A stretch of DNA of 50,468 nucleotides from Clostridia bacterium (GTDB taxonomy: Bacteria; Bacillota; Clostridia; Saccharofermentanales; Saccharofermentanaceae), in the NCBI GenBank assembly GCA_024403755.1, contig JAKSRF010000004.1, positions 1 through 50,468 of the forward strand, in the 5' to 3' direction. Of the stretch, positions 19,958 to 45,242 are shown one piece after another (the stretch's first letter is position 1; each line of letters begins with the position of its first letter). The position numbers and the translations under genes are program-made. The notes beneath the pieces are model-generated. The model had not been told where the DNA came from. It was given only the letters and a program-made list of their open reading frames with translations, and made no database searches.

Positions 19958-21751
19958 ATGAGAGTAAAAAAATACGACAAAACTGAATTTGTTTCTTCAA
20001 AGGATGTTGAAGCGGTAAAGGCTGCAGCGAAGCACCTTCATGACGGTGAAGTCGTAGGTTTCCCTACTGAGACGGTGTACGGTCTCGGTGCCAATGCTTT
20101 TGACAGGGATGCCGTAGATAAGATTTTCGAAGCCAAGGGAAGACCCGGTGATAATCCGCTGATTGTTCATATTGCGGATAAATCTCAGATTAATGAACTG
20201 GTGTCGGAGATAACGCCTGTTGCGCAAAAGCTCATTGATGCTTTTATGCCGGGACCGATTACTGTAATTATGCGTAAGTCGGATAAGATTCCTTCTAATG
20301 TTACGGCCGGACTTGATACTGTCGGAATCAGAATGCCTTCCAAAAAAGAAGCCAATGATTTTTTGCGTTTTTGTGATTGTCCTGTAGCAGCACCTTCTGC
20401 TAATATTTCGGGCAGTCCGTCACCTACGCGTGCCGACCATGTTATGGCAGATATGGATGGTTATGTTTATGCTGTTGTAGACGGCGGTGAGGCGGATTAC
20501 GGATTGGAATCTACCGTTGTCGATGCAACCGGAACGGTCCCTGTGGTGTTAAGACCGGGAGCTGTTACGGGTAAAATGATTTCAGAAGCACTTGAGACAA
20601 ACTCTGAGGACAATACGACTCTCAAAAAAGGTGAGACTCCTAAGGCTCCCGGAATGAAGTATCGTCATTATGCCCCGCATTGTTCGGTTGAGATTATAGA
20701 TTTACCGAATGATATTGAATTGATAAATGACGAGACTTTAGATACCGAGACGGAAGAAGATACAGAACTTGATTTTACTAAGCTGAGTGATGATGAGAAG
20801 AAAGAGGTCCTTAAAATTACTCTTCCTTTTATGAACAGAATCAGAGAGATATTAAATGAGAATCCTCTTGCGCGAATAGGTGTTTTTGCCGGAGTTGAGG
20901 TTAAGGCTTCGCTTGAAATGCTTCGCGATGATAACATTTATTATCACACAGAATTTTTTGTTTACGGAAGAAGTGCAGATACTTCTGCGGCTTCTCACTG
21001 TCTCTTTGACGGGTTGAGAGAACTTGATGTTAATAAGACTGATATTATTTTGGCTATGGGATTCAACGGTGACGGAATTTCCAAGGCATATATGAATCGA
21101 CTTAAGAAGGCGGCGTATAAATCGGGGGATATGCCTGATTCTGTACTGAAGGGTGATGATTTGAATTTGAGGAGCAAACGTTCTTTGGATTCTTTTAAAT
21201 CTACGTGTACAGCTTCTGTTTTGTTCATTTGTGATAAAAATCGCAATTTATCCATTGCAGCAGAGGCACTTTTCAGAGATATTATAAAAAGAGAATTACC
21301 GTACTGTTCGGTATTGTCTGAGGATGTCGGTGCCGAGCTTTATGCTGATTCATGCGGAATAAACGCAATAGACGGTGATATGCCCGATGAATTTACTTTA
21401 AAAGCTTTGAAGGAAGCAGCAGGTATTGATGCGTCATATCTTAAGGCTCTCAGAGGCAGTCCGTCCGTATACGATGATTCTGATATTATTATATGTTTAA
21501 GAGAAGATACTTTACAGAAATTGATTCACAATTTTCCTCCTTTGGAAAATAAAGCATATTCGCTTTCTTCATATGCGGCGAATTGCGGTTTGGTTGTAAA
21601 GAATGAGCAGGGAAAAGTTCTTTCTGTCTCGTTACCGGATCCGACCGGAGAAAATTATGTTACACATTTACATACCGTTAAAGCGATAAAAGCTTATCTA
21701 GAGCTTTTGTTTCCGTATATTCTTAAGGATTTGGGTGTAAAAAGAATCTGA
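19958..21751 (+). CDS. tsaC: Threonylcarbamoyladenylate synthase (TsaC/Sua5) fused to a degenerate LMW-phosphatase domain
   Basis: A 597-residue three-part protein. Residues about 15-215 are the YrdC/TsaC domain, which makes threonylcarbamoyl-AMP for tRNA t6A37 (PTETVYGLG, KGRPGDNPLIVH, APSANISGSPSPT). After the GMKYRHYAPH linker, residues about 240-400 are the Sua5 C-terminal domain (FDGLRELD, MNRLKKAA). Residues about 421-597 resemble a low-molecular-weight protein phosphatase: SVLFIC at Cys425, AAEALF, and a late LPDPTG with Asp561. The CX5R loop reads C-D-K-N-R-N-L-S, so the Arg is Leu431 and catalysis is unlikely. In Bacillus these parts are nearby separate genes, ywlC and ywlE, and YwlE is a phospho-arginine phosphatase. 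Confidence 0.9.
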   Translation: MRVKKYDKTEFVSSKDVEAVKAAAKHLHDGEVVGFPTETVYGLGANAFDRDAVDKIFEAKGRPGDNPLIVHIADKSQINELVSEITPVAQKLIDAFMPGPITVIMRKSDKIPSNVTAGLDTVGIRMPSKKEANDFLRFCDCPVAAPSANISGSPSPTRADHVMADMDGYVYAVVDGGEADYGLESTVVDATGTVPVVLRPGAVTGKMISEALETNSEDNTTLKKGETPKAPGMKYRHYAPHCSVEIIDLPNDIELINDETLDTETEEDTELDFTKLSDDEKKEVLKITLPFMNRIREILNENPLARIGVFAGVEVKASLEMLRDDNIYYHTEFFVYGRSADTSAASHCLFDGLRELDVNKTDIILAMGFNGDGISKAYMNRLKKAAYKSGDMPDSVLKGDDLNLRSKRSLDSFKSTCTASVLFICDKNRNLSIAAEALFRDIIKRELPYCSVLSEDVGAELYADSCGINAIDGDMPDEFTLKALKEAAGIDASYLKALRGSPSVYDDSDIIICLREDTLQKLIHNFPPLENKAYSLSSYAANCGLVVKNEQGKVLSVSLPDPTGENYVTHLHTVKAIKAYLELLFPYILKDLGVKRI

Positions 21752-40502: not shown

Positions 40503-40563
40503 GCAGTTTGTTGCTTACTGAATTATTGATTCAAAGGGAGTGAAAAATTCCTTAAAAACAATA

Positions 40564-40580
40564 TTGACATTCTTTGACTT
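40564..40580 (-). promoter_or_regulatory. CtsR operator 1
   Basis: On the minus strand the sequence AGTCAAAGAATGTCAA is a pair of heptads with a 3-base spacer, matching the CtsR box (RGTCAAA-N3-RGTCAAA) except at the last positions. It overlaps the -35 box, so binding should block RNA polymerase. Confidence 0.85.
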
Positions 40581-40592
40581 TTACTGCATAAT
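40564..40592 (+). promoter_or_regulatory. Promoter of the ctsR-mcsA-mcsB-clpC operon
   Basis: A perfect TTGACA (40564-40569) and CATAAT (40587-40592) have a 17-base spacer. CtsR boxes cover the -35/spacer region and the start region. Confidence 0.9.
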
Positions 40593-40597
40593 CTAAA

Positions 40598-40620
40598 TGT
40601 CAAAGAAAATCAAAGTCAAA
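40598..40620 (+). promoter_or_regulatory. CtsR operator 2
   Basis: TGTCAAA-GAA-AATCAAA, followed by a third overlapping heptad AGTCAAA, lies at the expected transcription start. It has the same heptad spacing as operator 1 but the opposite orientation. Confidence 0.82.
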
Positions 40621-40663
40621 AATGATTTGATTTTTTACTTCTATGAAGGAAGGGGTTGTTTCT

Positions 40664-41131
40664 ATGTCTACAATGGTTGACATTATTGAAATGTTAATAA
40701 AAGATATGATTGACGAGAACGGCGGAGAGGCAAGAATTAATCGTTCCTATCTTGCGGAGCAGGTCAGTTGTGTTCCGTCGCAGATAACGTATGTTGTTAA
40801 AACAAGATTCTCGTCTGACAACGGTTATATCGTTGAGAGTAAAAGAGGCGGCGGCGGTCAGATAATGATCAGAAGGTTGTCCCCGCTTACACAGAGTGAG
40901 TATTTGATGCAGATGTATAACAATATAGATTCACGACTTACTCAACAACAGGCAAGAGTGGTTATTGAGAATTCAATAAGAGCCGGTGCCTTGTCTCTCA
41001 GAGAAGGAAATGCTTTGCTTTCTTCTATCTCGGACAACGCATTGGAGAAGGTAGATGCGGGACATAAGACGATGGTAAGATCGGATATTCTTAAGAATGC
41101 ATTAATCGGATATATGATGAATGACAGATAA
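40664..41131 (+). CDS. ctsR: Transcriptional repressor CtsR
   Basis: A 155-residue repressor of clp genes. The N-terminal winged helix has CVPSQITYVVKTRF, and the glycine-rich wing ESKRGGGGQI senses heat and carries the Arg that McsB phosphorylates in Bacillus-type systems. The C-terminal dimerisation domain is helical. The start at 40664 follows GAAGGAAGGGG by about 9 bases; an in-frame ATG at 40643 precedes that site. Two CtsR boxes in its own promoter indicate autoregulation. Confidence 0.95.
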   Translation: MSTMVDIIEMLIKDMIDENGGEARINRSYLAEQVSCVPSQITYVVKTRFSSDNGYIVESKRGGGGQIMIRRLSPLTQSEYLMQMYNNIDSRLTQQQARVVIENSIRAGALSLREGNALLSSISDNALEKVDAGHKTMVRSDILKNALIGYMMNDR

Positions 41132-41144
41132 CGGAGGGATATAT

Positions 41145-41714
41145 ATGAGTGGTTTTTTTGATAATGATGAAAGTGGTTTTTTCAGTATAAGCAGTATCTC
41201 ATTCGGAGACAATGTGTACAGAAGTGTAAAGTATTCTACGACTGTTATGCCGGAGTTACAGATGCCGAATGATAACCTGACTTGTCCGAGATGCGGAACA
41301 ACTATACATAATGTGCAGAAAAACAGACGCTTGGGTTGCATAAATTGTTATACGGTTTTTGAAGGGCAAATAGCTAAGCTTATTAAGCTTACACAGCCTG
41401 ATACAGCATATTTAGGACGAACAAAAGGCAGAGACGGAATTGATGTAATGGAAATAAACAGTGAGGAAGACATCTCAGAGAATGTTGTCAATCGAACTAC
41501 TGAGACTGAAGTTCCTTCACAGAGTCAGGCTGTAAGCGATAATTCTTCCAAGGAGATAAGTAATGAAGAGAAGCTTGATAAATTGCGTAAGGCAGATTTG
41601 GGTATGCTTTCAGATGCTGAGATAGAGAAGAATATGAAGTTTGCCGCAAGTCAGCGTGATTACGTATTAGCCGGAAGACTTAAAGAAGAATTAAAGAGCA
41701 GAAAGGGCAATTAA
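41145..41714 (+). CDS. mcsA: McsA-like protein with one zinc finger and a UVR motif
   Basis: A 189-residue protein between ctsR and the mcsB homologue. It keeps the second McsA zinc finger, CPRCG and GCINCYTVF (the latter matching the FGCSECY segment of McsA), and a C-terminal UVR-like helix pair (DYVLAGRLKEELKSR). The first McsA finger (two CxxC at the N-terminus) is missing; residues 1-45 are Phe/Ser/Asp-rich instead. A Ser/Glu-rich linker lies between the finger and the UVR motif. GGAGGG precedes the ATG at 41145. McsA normally activates McsB. Confidence 0.82.
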   Translation: MSGFFDNDESGFFSISSISFGDNVYRSVKYSTTVMPELQMPNDNLTCPRCGTTIHNVQKNRRLGCINCYTVFEGQIAKLIKLTQPDTAYLGRTKGRDGIDVMEINSEEDISENVVNRTTETEVPSQSQAVSDNSSKEISNEEKLDKLRKADLGMLSDAEIEKNMKFAASQRDYVLAGRLKEELKSRKGN

Positions 41715-41715
41715 T

Positions 41716-42729
41716 ATGAGTAAAATGCCTGTTAAACAGAATGATGTAATATTAAGTACCAAGATTACCGTTTCGCGTAATTTAGACGGATTAAAGTTTC
41801 CGATAAAATTGGATGCTTCCGGTAAAAGTGAAGTAATAAAAGAGGTCAGAGACGTTTTGGCGGAGTATCCGATTCATTTTGAAGAAGTTGTACCTAAATA
41901 TGATAAGCTCAATAATGAGCTATACAGTAAGAAAATAGTTGACAGACAGTTCTACGAAGCCAATCAGGGTATAGCGCTTTTTGTGTCTGATGACCATGAA
42001 CTCAGTGTTTTGGTAAATGACGGAGAGCATATTAAGATTCAATGTGTTCTTCCGGGCATGGATACTCAGAACTGCTTTGTTAAGGCTAATAAACTTGCTG
42101 TTTTTCTCGAAAATAAGATGAATATCTCTTATACCGAAAGTCTTGGTTTTCTGACATCTGATATTGAGAAAATCGGCTTGGGAATGAATGTTACATTTCT
42201 GGCGGTTATACCGGGACTTCTTGATAAGAATGGTATTGTTGGTTTAAGTAATATTTTCGAGGAAAACTATTGTAAACTTATACCTTTTGATAATAAGGAT
42301 AAAAGTAATCCGCTGTATTTTCTTGAAAGCAGAGCAAATCTTGGTATAGATGAGAATACACTTCTTAAGATATCGGACAATTTGGCAGCTCAGTTTGCTG
42401 CCAAGGAACGTAAGGCTCGCTGTGAGTATCTTAAAGCCGGTGAAGAAATAATAGAAAACTACAAAAATGATTATTATTGCGGATACGGTATTTTAAAATA
42501 CGGCACACTTTTCTCTCGTAAGGATATAGTGAATTCAATCAGTATATTCTACATAGTTCAGACGGCACAGCCTGTTAATGATGAGACCTTTCTTTCTTGG
42601 GAACAACTGAAATTGCTTGTTTCAGAGTGTGTTATGTCCATTCTGGCTTTGGGAACAGAGGAATTTAACGTGCTTGAGTGTCGTAAGAAGATTGCAGTAC
42701 TGGTTAAACAGATATTGGATAAAGAGTAG
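41716..42729 (+). CDS. mcsB: McsB homologue, probable pseudo-arginine-kinase
   Basis: A 337-residue phosphagen-kinase-fold protein, recognised by DVILSTKITVSRN, HIKIQCVLPG, GFLTS and ESRANLG and by its place between mcsA and clpC. Active-site residues have changed: SSRIRLARN became STKITVSRN, NEEDH became NDGEH (residues 101-105, catalytic Glu lost), CPTNxGTGxRAS became DIEKIGLGMNVT (Cys to Asp149, Arg lost), and the GEGS loop is gone. Arginine phosphorylation is therefore unlikely. A binding or scaffold role with McsA and ClpC is inferred. It begins 1 base after the mcsA-like gene. Confidence 0.85.
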   Translation: MSKMPVKQNDVILSTKITVSRNLDGLKFPIKLDASGKSEVIKEVRDVLAEYPIHFEEVVPKYDKLNNELYSKKIVDRQFYEANQGIALFVSDDHELSVLVNDGEHIKIQCVLPGMDTQNCFVKANKLAVFLENKMNISYTESLGFLTSDIEKIGLGMNVTFLAVIPGLLDKNGIVGLSNIFEENYCKLIPFDNKDKSNPLYFLESRANLGIDENTLLKISDNLAAQFAAKERKARCEYLKAGEEIIENYKNDYYCGYGILKYGTLFSRKDIVNSISIFYIVQTAQPVNDETFLSWEQLKLLVSECVMSILALGTEEFNVLECRKKIAVLVKQILDKE

Positions 42730-42746: not shown

Positions 42747-45242
42747 ATGAATTTAAGTGAGACAGCAAAAAATGCTTTGATTATTGCAGGATCTTTTGCA
42801 AAATCAATCGGTACACATCACTTGATGTACGGCTTGACCGAGACAGATTCACAGATTAAAAAATCTCTTGAATCGAAGGGGGTAACACTCGATAAACTTT
42901 TGGAAGCGATTAAGGCAATTGATCGAGACAACAGTGACTTTGAAGCCGGTGAGATGAACCGCACTTTGGATGATATATTGAAGCAAAGTGAGAATGAAGT
43001 TAAAAAGGTTTTGTCCTTCGTAGAGATGGAAGTAAACGGAAAGCAGAAAAGACCGGCTGGTTCAATGGAAATATTCAGGGTAATGTGTATACTCGCACCT
43101 AATTGCGGCACCGCTTATCCTATGCTTAAGAAACTGGATTTTGACTTGAAGAATGTCAGATTTCAGAGCGGTACGTCACAGTTCGGACCGACAGGTCTCT
43201 CGGGAATGCTTCCGTTTGCGAATTTTGCTAATTCATTTTCTCAGAGAATGCAGGGACCTGAAAGCGATAAGAAGAAAGGACTCAAGGAGTATTCAAAGAA
43301 CTTAACGGAAGCCGCCAAAGAAGGAAAAATTGATCCGGTTATCGGTCGTGATGATGAGATACACAGAGTTATGCAGATACTGGCACGCAGAACAAAGAAT
43401 AATCCGTGTCTTGTAGGTGATCCCGGTGTAGGTAAGACTGCAATAGCTGAGGGCTTGGCGCTTAAAATCGCCAACGGTGATGTTCCGGATATTATAAAGG
43501 ATAAACAGATTTACAGTGTTGATATGGCATCAATGCTTGCAGGTTCAAAATATCGAGGTGAGTTTGAAGAGAGAATAAAAAATGTTCTCAATGAGGCAGT
43601 TGCAGATCCGAATGTTATTCTCTTTATTGATGAGATGCATTCTCTTATAGGAGCCGGTGATAACGAGGGTACTCTTGATGCTGCGAATATTTTAAAGCCG
43701 CTTTTAACAAAAAACGAGCTTCAGATATTCGGTGCAACTACACTTGATGAGTACAGTAAATATATTGAGAAGGATTCGGCATTGGAACGTAGATTCCAAA
43801 AGGTAATGGTTAATGAACCTTCACCGGATGAGGCAGTCTTGATTTTAAAAGGACTTCGTCCGAAGTATGAGGAGCATCATAAGATTAAAATATCTGATGA
43901 AGCAATAGAGAAAGCAGTATATCTTTCTACAAGATATATAGCGGATCGTTTTCTTCCTGATAAAGCCATTGACCTTATTGATGAAGCTTCCGCATGTAAG
44001 CGTATTAACTTCCTGGATAACAGCAGCGTTATTAACAGTAAAATCAATAATCTGAAAACCTTGGAGGAGAATGCTGCCAATGATGAGGATTATCAGCTTG
44101 CCAATGAATATAAAGAGAAAATTCTGAAGCTTGAAGAGCAGTTGAATGCTTCTCCGGATGAGAACAGCGAAGTTCTTACTGTTGACGACATTGCAAATGT
44201 TCTTGCCAAATGGACAGGAATTCCTGTATCCAGAATAACTTCAACCGAAGCAGATAAGCTTAAGAGTCTTGAGGATGAATTGAAAAAACGTGTAATAGGA
44301 CAGGATGAGGCTGTTGCTTCAATAGCAAAGGCTATAAGACGAAGCAGACTCGGACTTAAAGATCCTAACAGACCGGCAGGTTCCTTTATCTTCTTAGGAA
44401 CAACCGGTGTAGGTAAGACAGAACTTGCCAAGGCACTTGCCGAGGTGGTATTCGGCAGCAGGGATGCTCTTGTCAGAATAGATATGTCTGAATATATGGA
44501 AAAGAATGATGTTAACAAATTAATCGGAGCTCCTCCGGGATATGTAGGCTACGAAGAGGGTGGACAGCTTACCGAGAAGATACGTCGCAAACCATATTCT
44601 GTAGTTCTGTTTGATGAGATAGAGAAAGCTCATCCGGATATATTTAATTCTATGCTTCAGATTCTTGATGACGGTCGATTGACTGACGGTCAGGGACGAG
44701 TTGTTGATTTTAAGAATACAATAATCATTATGACATCCAATATCGGTGCCAAACAGCTTACCGGCGATTCTAATCGCCGTATCGGATTCTCAACTTTCGA
44801 GGATGAGAATGATAAGGATGAGGCAAGTCGTGAGAGATTGTACGGCGGAAAATCATATGATGATGCAAAAAACGTTGTTCTTGATGAGCTTAAGAAAACA
44901 TTTACACCTGAATTTGTGAACAGACTGGATGAGATTGTATTTTTCCGTATGCTTGGTAAGGATTCACTTGTAAAGATTGTTGATTTGCTGTTGGGTGAAT
45001 TGACAAAGAGAATAGAAGCTTTGAATATTAAAGTTGAGATAACCGATAAAACTAAGGAGTTCCTTGCTGAGAAGGGTTACGATCCGCAATATGGTGCACG
45101 TCCGTTAAGAAGAACGGTTCAGGCATATGTAGAGGATAATTTCTCTGAAGCTCTTCTTGACGGTGTTGTAGCTCCGGGTAAAACTGCACTGTTTGATGTA
45201 TCTGAGAACAATGATACAATAAGTGTAAAATGTAAAGAATAA
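42747..45242 (+). CDS. clpC: ATP-dependent Clp protease ATP-binding subunit ClpC
   Basis: An 831-residue AAA+ unfoldase with a double Clp-N domain (1-140). D1 has Walker A GDPGVGKT (224-231) and FIDEMHSLIGAG. A short M-domain with a UVR-like DYQLANEYKEK follows, then D2 with GTTGVGKT (about 551-558) and FDEIEKAHPD. IGF in RRIGFSTF is the ClpP-docking loop. The N-domain is divergent: the phospho-arginine-binding Glu of GTEH reads GTHH (His24) in repeat 1 and GSME (Met107) in repeat 2. It is the last gene of the CtsR operon, with a terminator after it. Confidence 0.95.
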   Translation: MNLSETAKNALIIAGSFAKSIGTHHLMYGLTETDSQIKKSLESKGVTLDKLLEAIKAIDRDNSDFEAGEMNRTLDDILKQSENEVKKVLSFVEMEVNGKQKRPAGSMEIFRVMCILAPNCGTAYPMLKKLDFDLKNVRFQSGTSQFGPTGLSGMLPFANFANSFSQRMQGPESDKKKGLKEYSKNLTEAAKEGKIDPVIGRDDEIHRVMQILARRTKNNPCLVGDPGVGKTAIAEGLALKIANGDVPDIIKDKQIYSVDMASMLAGSKYRGEFEERIKNVLNEAVADPNVILFIDEMHSLIGAGDNEGTLDAANILKPLLTKNELQIFGATTLDEYSKYIEKDSALERRFQKVMVNEPSPDEAVLILKGLRPKYEEHHKIKISDEAIEKAVYLSTRYIADRFLPDKAIDLIDEASACKRINFLDNSSVINSKINNLKTLEENAANDEDYQLANEYKEKILKLEEQLNASPDENSEVLTVDDIANVLAKWTGIPVSRITSTEADKLKSLEDELKKRVIGQDEAVASIAKAIRRSRLGLKDPNRPAGSFIFLGTTGVGKTELAKALAEVVFGSRDALVRIDMSEYMEKNDVNKLIGAPPGYVGYEEGGQLTEKIRRKPYSVVLFDEIEKAHPDIFNSMLQILDDGRLTDGQGRVVDFKNTIIIMTSNIGAKQLTGDSNRRIGFSTFEDENDKDEASRERLYGGKSYDDAKNVVLDELKKTFTPEFVNRLDEIVFFRMLGKDSLVKIVDLLLGELTKRIEALNIKVEITDKTKEFLAEKGYDPQYGARPLRRTVQAYVEDNFSEALLDGVVAPGKTALFDVSENNDTISVKCKE

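Follow-up and report, generated by a model that had tools for sequence, protein, structure and literature searches.

The mcsB gene at positions 41716-42729 of the window, by which is meant the whole stretch of 50,468 nucleotides analysed here, encodes a true pseudoenzyme that has descended from McsB, the kinase whose arginine phosphorylation tags proteins for degradation, and is almost certainly unable to transfer phosphate. The McsB fold has been retained, the catalytic residues have been lost, and the gene is under purifying selection. The best explanation overall, which is held with moderate confidence, is that this pseudo-McsB acts as a non-catalytic partner of McsA, CtsR and ClpC, as either an adaptor or an anti-repressor. 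The same state is found throughout Saccharofermentans, a genus of rumen bacteria.

The clp operon of the window

The features of the window that are relevant to this analysis are listed here.

21218-21691, forward strand: C-terminal phosphatase domain, YwlE-type and degenerate, of a TsaC/Sua5 fusion (ORF 19958-21751); its CX5R motif has become CDKNRNL
40529-40620, forward strand: CtsR-box-like TCAAA tandem repeats just 5' of ctsR; four matches, three of them with 2 mismatches
40643-41131, forward strand: ctsR, the CtsR repressor with both domains (PF05848, 1.3e-27; PF17727, 1.1e-11) and the wing motif SKRGGGG kept
41121-41714, forward strand: mcsA-like gene (NCBIfam McsA, E=7e-7), with the second zinc finger (CPRC...GCINC) kept and the first absent
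41716-42729, forward strand: mcsB, the McsB pseudokinase, 337 aa, phosphotransferase and dimerization domains
41761-41769, forward strand: codons K16-T18 of mcsB, which replace R29 and R31, by homology the ATP-phosphate arginines
42022-42036, forward strand: codons G103-K107 of mcsB, which replace the catalytic E121 and R125; H105, the equivalent of H123, is retained
42145-42162, forward strand: GFLTS (residues 144-148) and D149 of mcsB; D149 replaces the catalytic C167 and adjoins the McsA zinc-finger docking loop (as defined in S. aureus)
42187-42189, forward strand: codon N158 of mcsB, which replaces R176
42280-42297, forward strand: codons I189-K194 of mcsB, which replace R207 and E212 in the rewritten lid region
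42747-45242, forward strand: clpC, the ClpC unfoldase, with two intact Walker A motifs, the ClpP loop (IGFS) and altered phosphoarginine pockets in the N-domain

The four genes are tightly packed on one strand between 40643 and 45242 in the order ctsR-mcsA-mcsB-clpC, with a single base between mcsA and mcsB and 17 bases between mcsB and clpC. As had been predicted, mcsB is in frame; it starts with ATG and runs for 337 aa with zero internal stops and both McsB domains present. The description of the clp operon as otherwise normal was mistaken, since the window ClpC has lost phosphoarginine-pocket residues from its N-domain and the window McsA has no first zinc finger. In a search of the whole window for CtsR boxes, 21 were found against 21.2 expected, which is not significant window-wide, although the repeats in front of ctsR are suggestive.

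Family and fold of the window McsB

The window protein matches the Pfam domain PF00217 with an E-value of 1.3e-20. It is also matched by the NCBIfam McsB models at E-values of 1e-35 to 1e-19, yet falls far under their equivalog cut-offs, the best match being 123 bits against the 385 needed. Among solved structures, those closest to it in sequence are McsB chains, B. subtilis McsB being the first. Structure prediction had been proposed as a check on the original prediction, and the AlphaFold2 model, built solely with the window protein and its relatives in the genus, has the McsB fold (pLDDT 78, pTM 0.81). Against the McsB crystal structure 6tv6 the VIA-align Z is 31.0 over 319 residues, and Foldseek comparisons with McsB crystals give a TM of approximately 0.8. 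Since the model aligns to McsB crystals across residues 7-337, both domains, the ATP:guanido phosphotransferase and the McsB dimerization domain, are present, and by its modelled fold the window protein is a McsB.

Loss of the active site

The residues R29, R31, E121, R125, C167, R176, R207 and E212 are taken here, from the arginine kinase and McsB literature, to be the catalytic and phosphate-binding residues of McsB, and all eight positions were found to be invariant in the active relatives. Aligned with B. subtilis McsB, the window protein keeps none of the eight. The catalytic Glu121, Cys167 and Glu212 are replaced by G103, D149 and K194, and the phosphate-binding Arg29, Arg31, Arg125, Arg176 and Arg207 by K16, T18, K107, N158 and I189. 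Positions are numbered by the B. subtilis McsB chain, and the numbering was verified with R190 and R194, the reported McsB autophosphorylation sites (PMC8370763).

The register of the alignment at the active site is secured by the gapless anchors GFLTS, H105 and R21. GFLTS lies before the catalytic Cys and H105 after the catalytic Glu, and the register is secure at both. The alignment of the lid region, which holds R207 and E212, is less sure, but the stretch from window residue 184 to 203 is without any Glu. The residues that Saccharofermentans has lost although they do not vary among active relatives are concentrated at the active site, and GFLTS is among the best conserved parts, in agreement with the original prediction that the ATP and guanidinium sites had been rewritten and the sequence outside them kept. 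The pseudokinase call would fail if the catalytic Glu, Cys and Arg were present at displaced positions. With the register fixed by the anchors, no displaced residues were found in the window or in the genus alignment, and at no position of the genus has a Glu, Cys or Arg become newly conserved. The window McsB very probably has no kinase activity.

Distribution and selection within the genus

All 57 of the Saccharofermentans McsB sequences that were read keep between 0 and 2 of the eight active-site residues. In three sister genera of the same family, 8 of 8 are kept in 7 out of 7 genomes, and in a fourth genus 7 of 8 are kept, with only a Cys167 to Tyr change, in 10 out of 10. Eighteen order-level relatives keep all eight, and in a truncated copy the six positions that are visible are likewise unchanged. 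A scan of genome contigs gave relatives with an alignment of genus members as query and none with the window protein alone. The isolates AB4001 and YAD3003 also carry relatives. In the McsB tree the pseudokinase clade is monophyletic with support of 100/100, and the window lineage sits on a long branch of 2.12.

The phosphoarginine receptor motif R337/D338 is RD in the order relatives versus QE or ID in the sister genera; within Saccharofermentans the regular-expression tally is unreliable, with 13 rows having no match, and only the contrast between the order and the sister genera is used. In the ClpC tree the genus with the Cys167 to Tyr change is sister to Saccharofermentans, with an SH-aLRT of 90 that is not decisive. 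As the genus altered at this one position adjoins Saccharofermentans in that tree, the loss was likely stepwise, with the receptor motif changing from RD to QE or ID at the family level, followed by the cysteine and then the remainder.

Purifying selection on the Saccharofermentans McsB is as strong as on its active cousins. For twelve close pairs from the genus dN/dS is 0.02-0.12, compared to 0.05-0.15 for fully active order-level pairs and 0.03-0.09 for the Cys167 to Tyr genus; the pair formed by the window and genome G013 is saturated. The frame is open in every Saccharofermentans copy found (57 out of 57). Low dN/dS that matches that of active McsB means that the pseudo-McsB is a functional protein, and the proposal that the gene is selected as a protein, with dN/dS as its suggested measure, is upheld. 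The pseudokinase call itself stands on the loss of the active site in all 57 species read, the retained fold and the low dN/dS. A reading of the window mcsB as a pseudogene was considered and rejected on the same dN/dS values.

Five Saccharofermentans genomes (G022, G075, G076, G084 and G096), which are 76-98% complete, have no McsB or CtsR match and no operon-type ClpC. ClpE-like genes are present in four of these. Gaps in the assemblies could account for this, or the entire module may have been lost and so be dispensable in some species.

McsA docking

In the S. aureus complex, McsA binds with its C-terminal zinc finger to the McsB loop that flanks the catalytic Cys (PMC12467219). This second zinc finger is present in the McsA of 57 out of 57 Saccharofermentans. 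Few parts of the pseudokinase are conserved as well as the docking loop and GFLTS, the latter being near-invariant in the genus, so that at the sequence level both sides of the McsA contact are in place. Given this conservation of the loop and the finger, the most economical interpretation is that selection on the pseudo-McsB still preserves the docking of McsA. The first zinc finger is absent from the window McsA alone and present in the 56 others examined from the genus.

There is no second arginine kinase in the window's genome, which has only one PF00217 protein, and MecA was not found in the seven genomes tested. A ClpE-like Hsp100 is present in addition to ClpC.

The phosphatase and the ClpC N-domain

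The only LMW-phosphatase domain of the window is the one at 21218-21691, at the end of the TsaC/Sua5 fusion. In the sister genera the phosphatase P-loop is C[TS]GNTCRSP, the YwlE form with the CX5R Arg intact, in 13 out of 13. In Saccharofermentans the catalytic Arg of CX5R is lost in 28 out of 28, and in several the Cys is lost too. Neither the window domain, with its CDKNRNL, nor any of the 28 from the genus has the CX5R P-loop together with the Thr at the arginine-selecting position that marks YwlE.

In the N-domain of the window ClpC, E32 is replaced by H, E106 by M, R9 by T, and both R83 and T81 by E; R83 and T81 are presumed to be pocket residues from the symmetry of the N-domain repeats. 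Throughout the genus R83, the second-repeat equivalent of R9, is D or E (56 out of 56) and in all others it is R (35 out of 35). R9 is D or E in 49 of the 56 Saccharofermentans; E32 is retained in 21 of the 56, E106 in 47, and both together in 20-21. The Walker motifs and ClpP loop of the AAA modules are retained in the window ClpC. Phosphoarginine is read by the ClpC N-domain via pockets that include T7, R9, E32 and E106, and in S. aureus ClpC the changes E32A/E106A, R9A and T7D give a protein that is active without phosphoarginine or MecA (PMC12583610). By analogy with these mutants, which are freed from the need for phosphoarginine or MecA, it is plausible that the Saccharofermentans ClpC is derepressed and independent of the tag.

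By these comparisons, the rest of the phosphoarginine pathway has decayed in the same genus as McsB. The changes in McsB, the phosphatase and ClpC are on one branch and are not independent evidence of a causal link.

Possible roles of the pseudo-McsB

Given no kinase activity, a role as adaptor or anti-repressor can be proposed with slightly more confidence than the partner explanation as a whole. The pseudo-McsB would have been kept for another role, that of binding McsA and, via McsA or directly, CtsR and ClpC. The McsA-McsB complex could hold CtsR or take it off the DNA, and through direct contact could present CtsR, and possibly further clients, to ClpC without a phosphoarginine tag that the rebuilt ClpC N-domain would no longer need. 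From the operon and the conservation of the McsA docking loop it is reasonable to infer that the pseudo-McsB has a part in controlling Clp. In B. subtilis, McsB that is freed from McsA removes CtsR from DNA with its kinase off (PMC5506225). The same review reports that McsB needs its kinase activity for ClpC stimulation and substrate degradation, and because of this a purely structural McsB adaptor has no direct precedent.

It is unlikely that the old active-site cleft has become a ligand- or peptide-sensing site, making the pseudo-McsB a sensor for CtsR and ClpC rather than a plain scaffold. The cleft fold of the phosphotransferase domain is retained, and the columns of W186, P190, Y257 and W277 are conserved only in the genus. 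However, of the eight columns that once made up the active site, seven vary within the genus (entropy percentiles 53-95), which fits an abandoned pocket, and the window McsB itself does not have the W186 and W277 residues.

The close packing of mcsB with mcsA and clpC and the conserved docking loop would also suit a mainly structural partner, kept to make McsA stable or for translational coupling to clpC and taking no part in substrate choice. This is a little less likely still, as dN/dS is low across the whole length, which is unexpected for a pure spacer. The persistence of arginine kinase activity via different or migrated residues is very improbable. Pseudoenzymes with migrated residues are known in general (PMC10211241), but the genus has gained no conserved Glu, Cys or Arg, the columns in which E121 and E212 are replaced rank with the most variable, and the phosphatase and the phosphate-binding residues of ClpC are lost in the same genus. 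Decay of mcsB on its way out, to which the operon's seeming absence from some genus members and the long window branch might point, is extremely unlikely in view of the 57 intact frames among 57 found, purifying selection equal to that on active McsB and the same state genus-wide.

Comparison with known systems

The partner proposed here shares with the McsB kinases of B. subtilis (6tv6, 8wtb), G. stearothermophilus (6fh1-6fh3) and S. aureus (8gqd) the two-domain fold (Z 31, 319 residues), the operon, the McsA partner and the GFLTS/H123/R34 framework. It differs from them in the replacement of all eight active-site residues tested, and the R337/D338 receptor motif is not recognisable in Saccharofermentans. 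The ATP:guanido phosphotransferases, such as arginine and creatine kinases, share the PF00217 domain and the fold (Z 20-23), whereas the pseudo-McsB lacks the catalytic Glu and Cys residues and every phosphate-binding Arg, and its operon is one of proteolysis, not energy buffering. With MecA and other direct-binding ClpC adaptors it would share a mode of action, in which ClpC is activated or guided by way of its N-domain and needs no covalent tag, although it is unrelated to MecA. Hanks-type bacterial pseudokinases are likewise derived from kinases and without catalytic residues, and belong to a different kinase superfamily; in a 2025 review of these, McsB is only in the reference list (PMC12599244). 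In keeping with the earlier suggestion that such a protein had not been described, a search of an open-access library gave no account of a McsB pseudoenzyme.

The kinase and adaptor activities of McsB have been hard to separate, both being kinase-dependent (PMC5506225). Here evolution has separated the kinase from the other roles, leaving a strongly selected McsB without catalytic residues. Comparison with the sister genera that have intact McsB or the Cys167 to Tyr change would reveal the effect of McsB and McsA on CtsR and ClpC without phosphoarginine.

Pseudo-McsB outside Saccharofermentans

All 39 spirochaete loci sampled, from a Treponema MAG and its relatives, have a pseudo-McsB, with 0-5 of the eight residues kept. 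The Treponema MAG locus (L156:2469-6678) has mcsA-mcsB-clpC with no ctsR on the contig and has lost the McsB active site, and the 38 further spirochaete loci are alike. The possibility that this locus was a binning error was rejected, since it stands apart as an mcsA-mcsB-clpC locus of its own and has many relatives. Of 20 in Treponema, 18 have LMWPc matches; these are probably ordinary phosphatases.

The lowest-scoring McsB copies were also read from 196 genomes drawn across the class. Only 0-4 of 8 are kept by copies in the clostridial families f12, f34, f43, f59 and f15, and f34 and f43 also hold copies with 8 of 8. From this mixture, there have apparently been several separate losses of the McsB active site, in the spirochaetes and in five other clostridial families. 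Genomes with an annotated McsB, including the sampled spirochaetes, may have no arginine phosphorylation by the McsB route.

The spirochaetes with a dead McsB keep E32/E106-like ClpC residues, where aligned, which counts against the partner explanation. A possible, rather doubtful, wider reading is that the writer, eraser and reader of a whole tagging system have lost their chemistry in one genus with all three proteins kept and rewired. The ClpC pocket, its phosphate-binding Arg having become acidic, might then read unmodified Arg or Lys or the pseudo-McsB itself, and the switch of McsB from kinase to pseudokinase would have been repeated across phyla.

Among individual loci, L260-L262, L264, L265, L268, L269, L272 and L297 come from several other clostridial families and have pseudo-McsBs that keep 0-2 of 8, while certain relatives in these families have 8 of 8. 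A milder loss, to 6 of 8, is seen at L263. In family f9, which has genomes of 0.8-0.9 Mb, the McsBs at L266, L267, L270 and L271 have only Cys167 changed, to Ser, which is possibly another early step toward loss.
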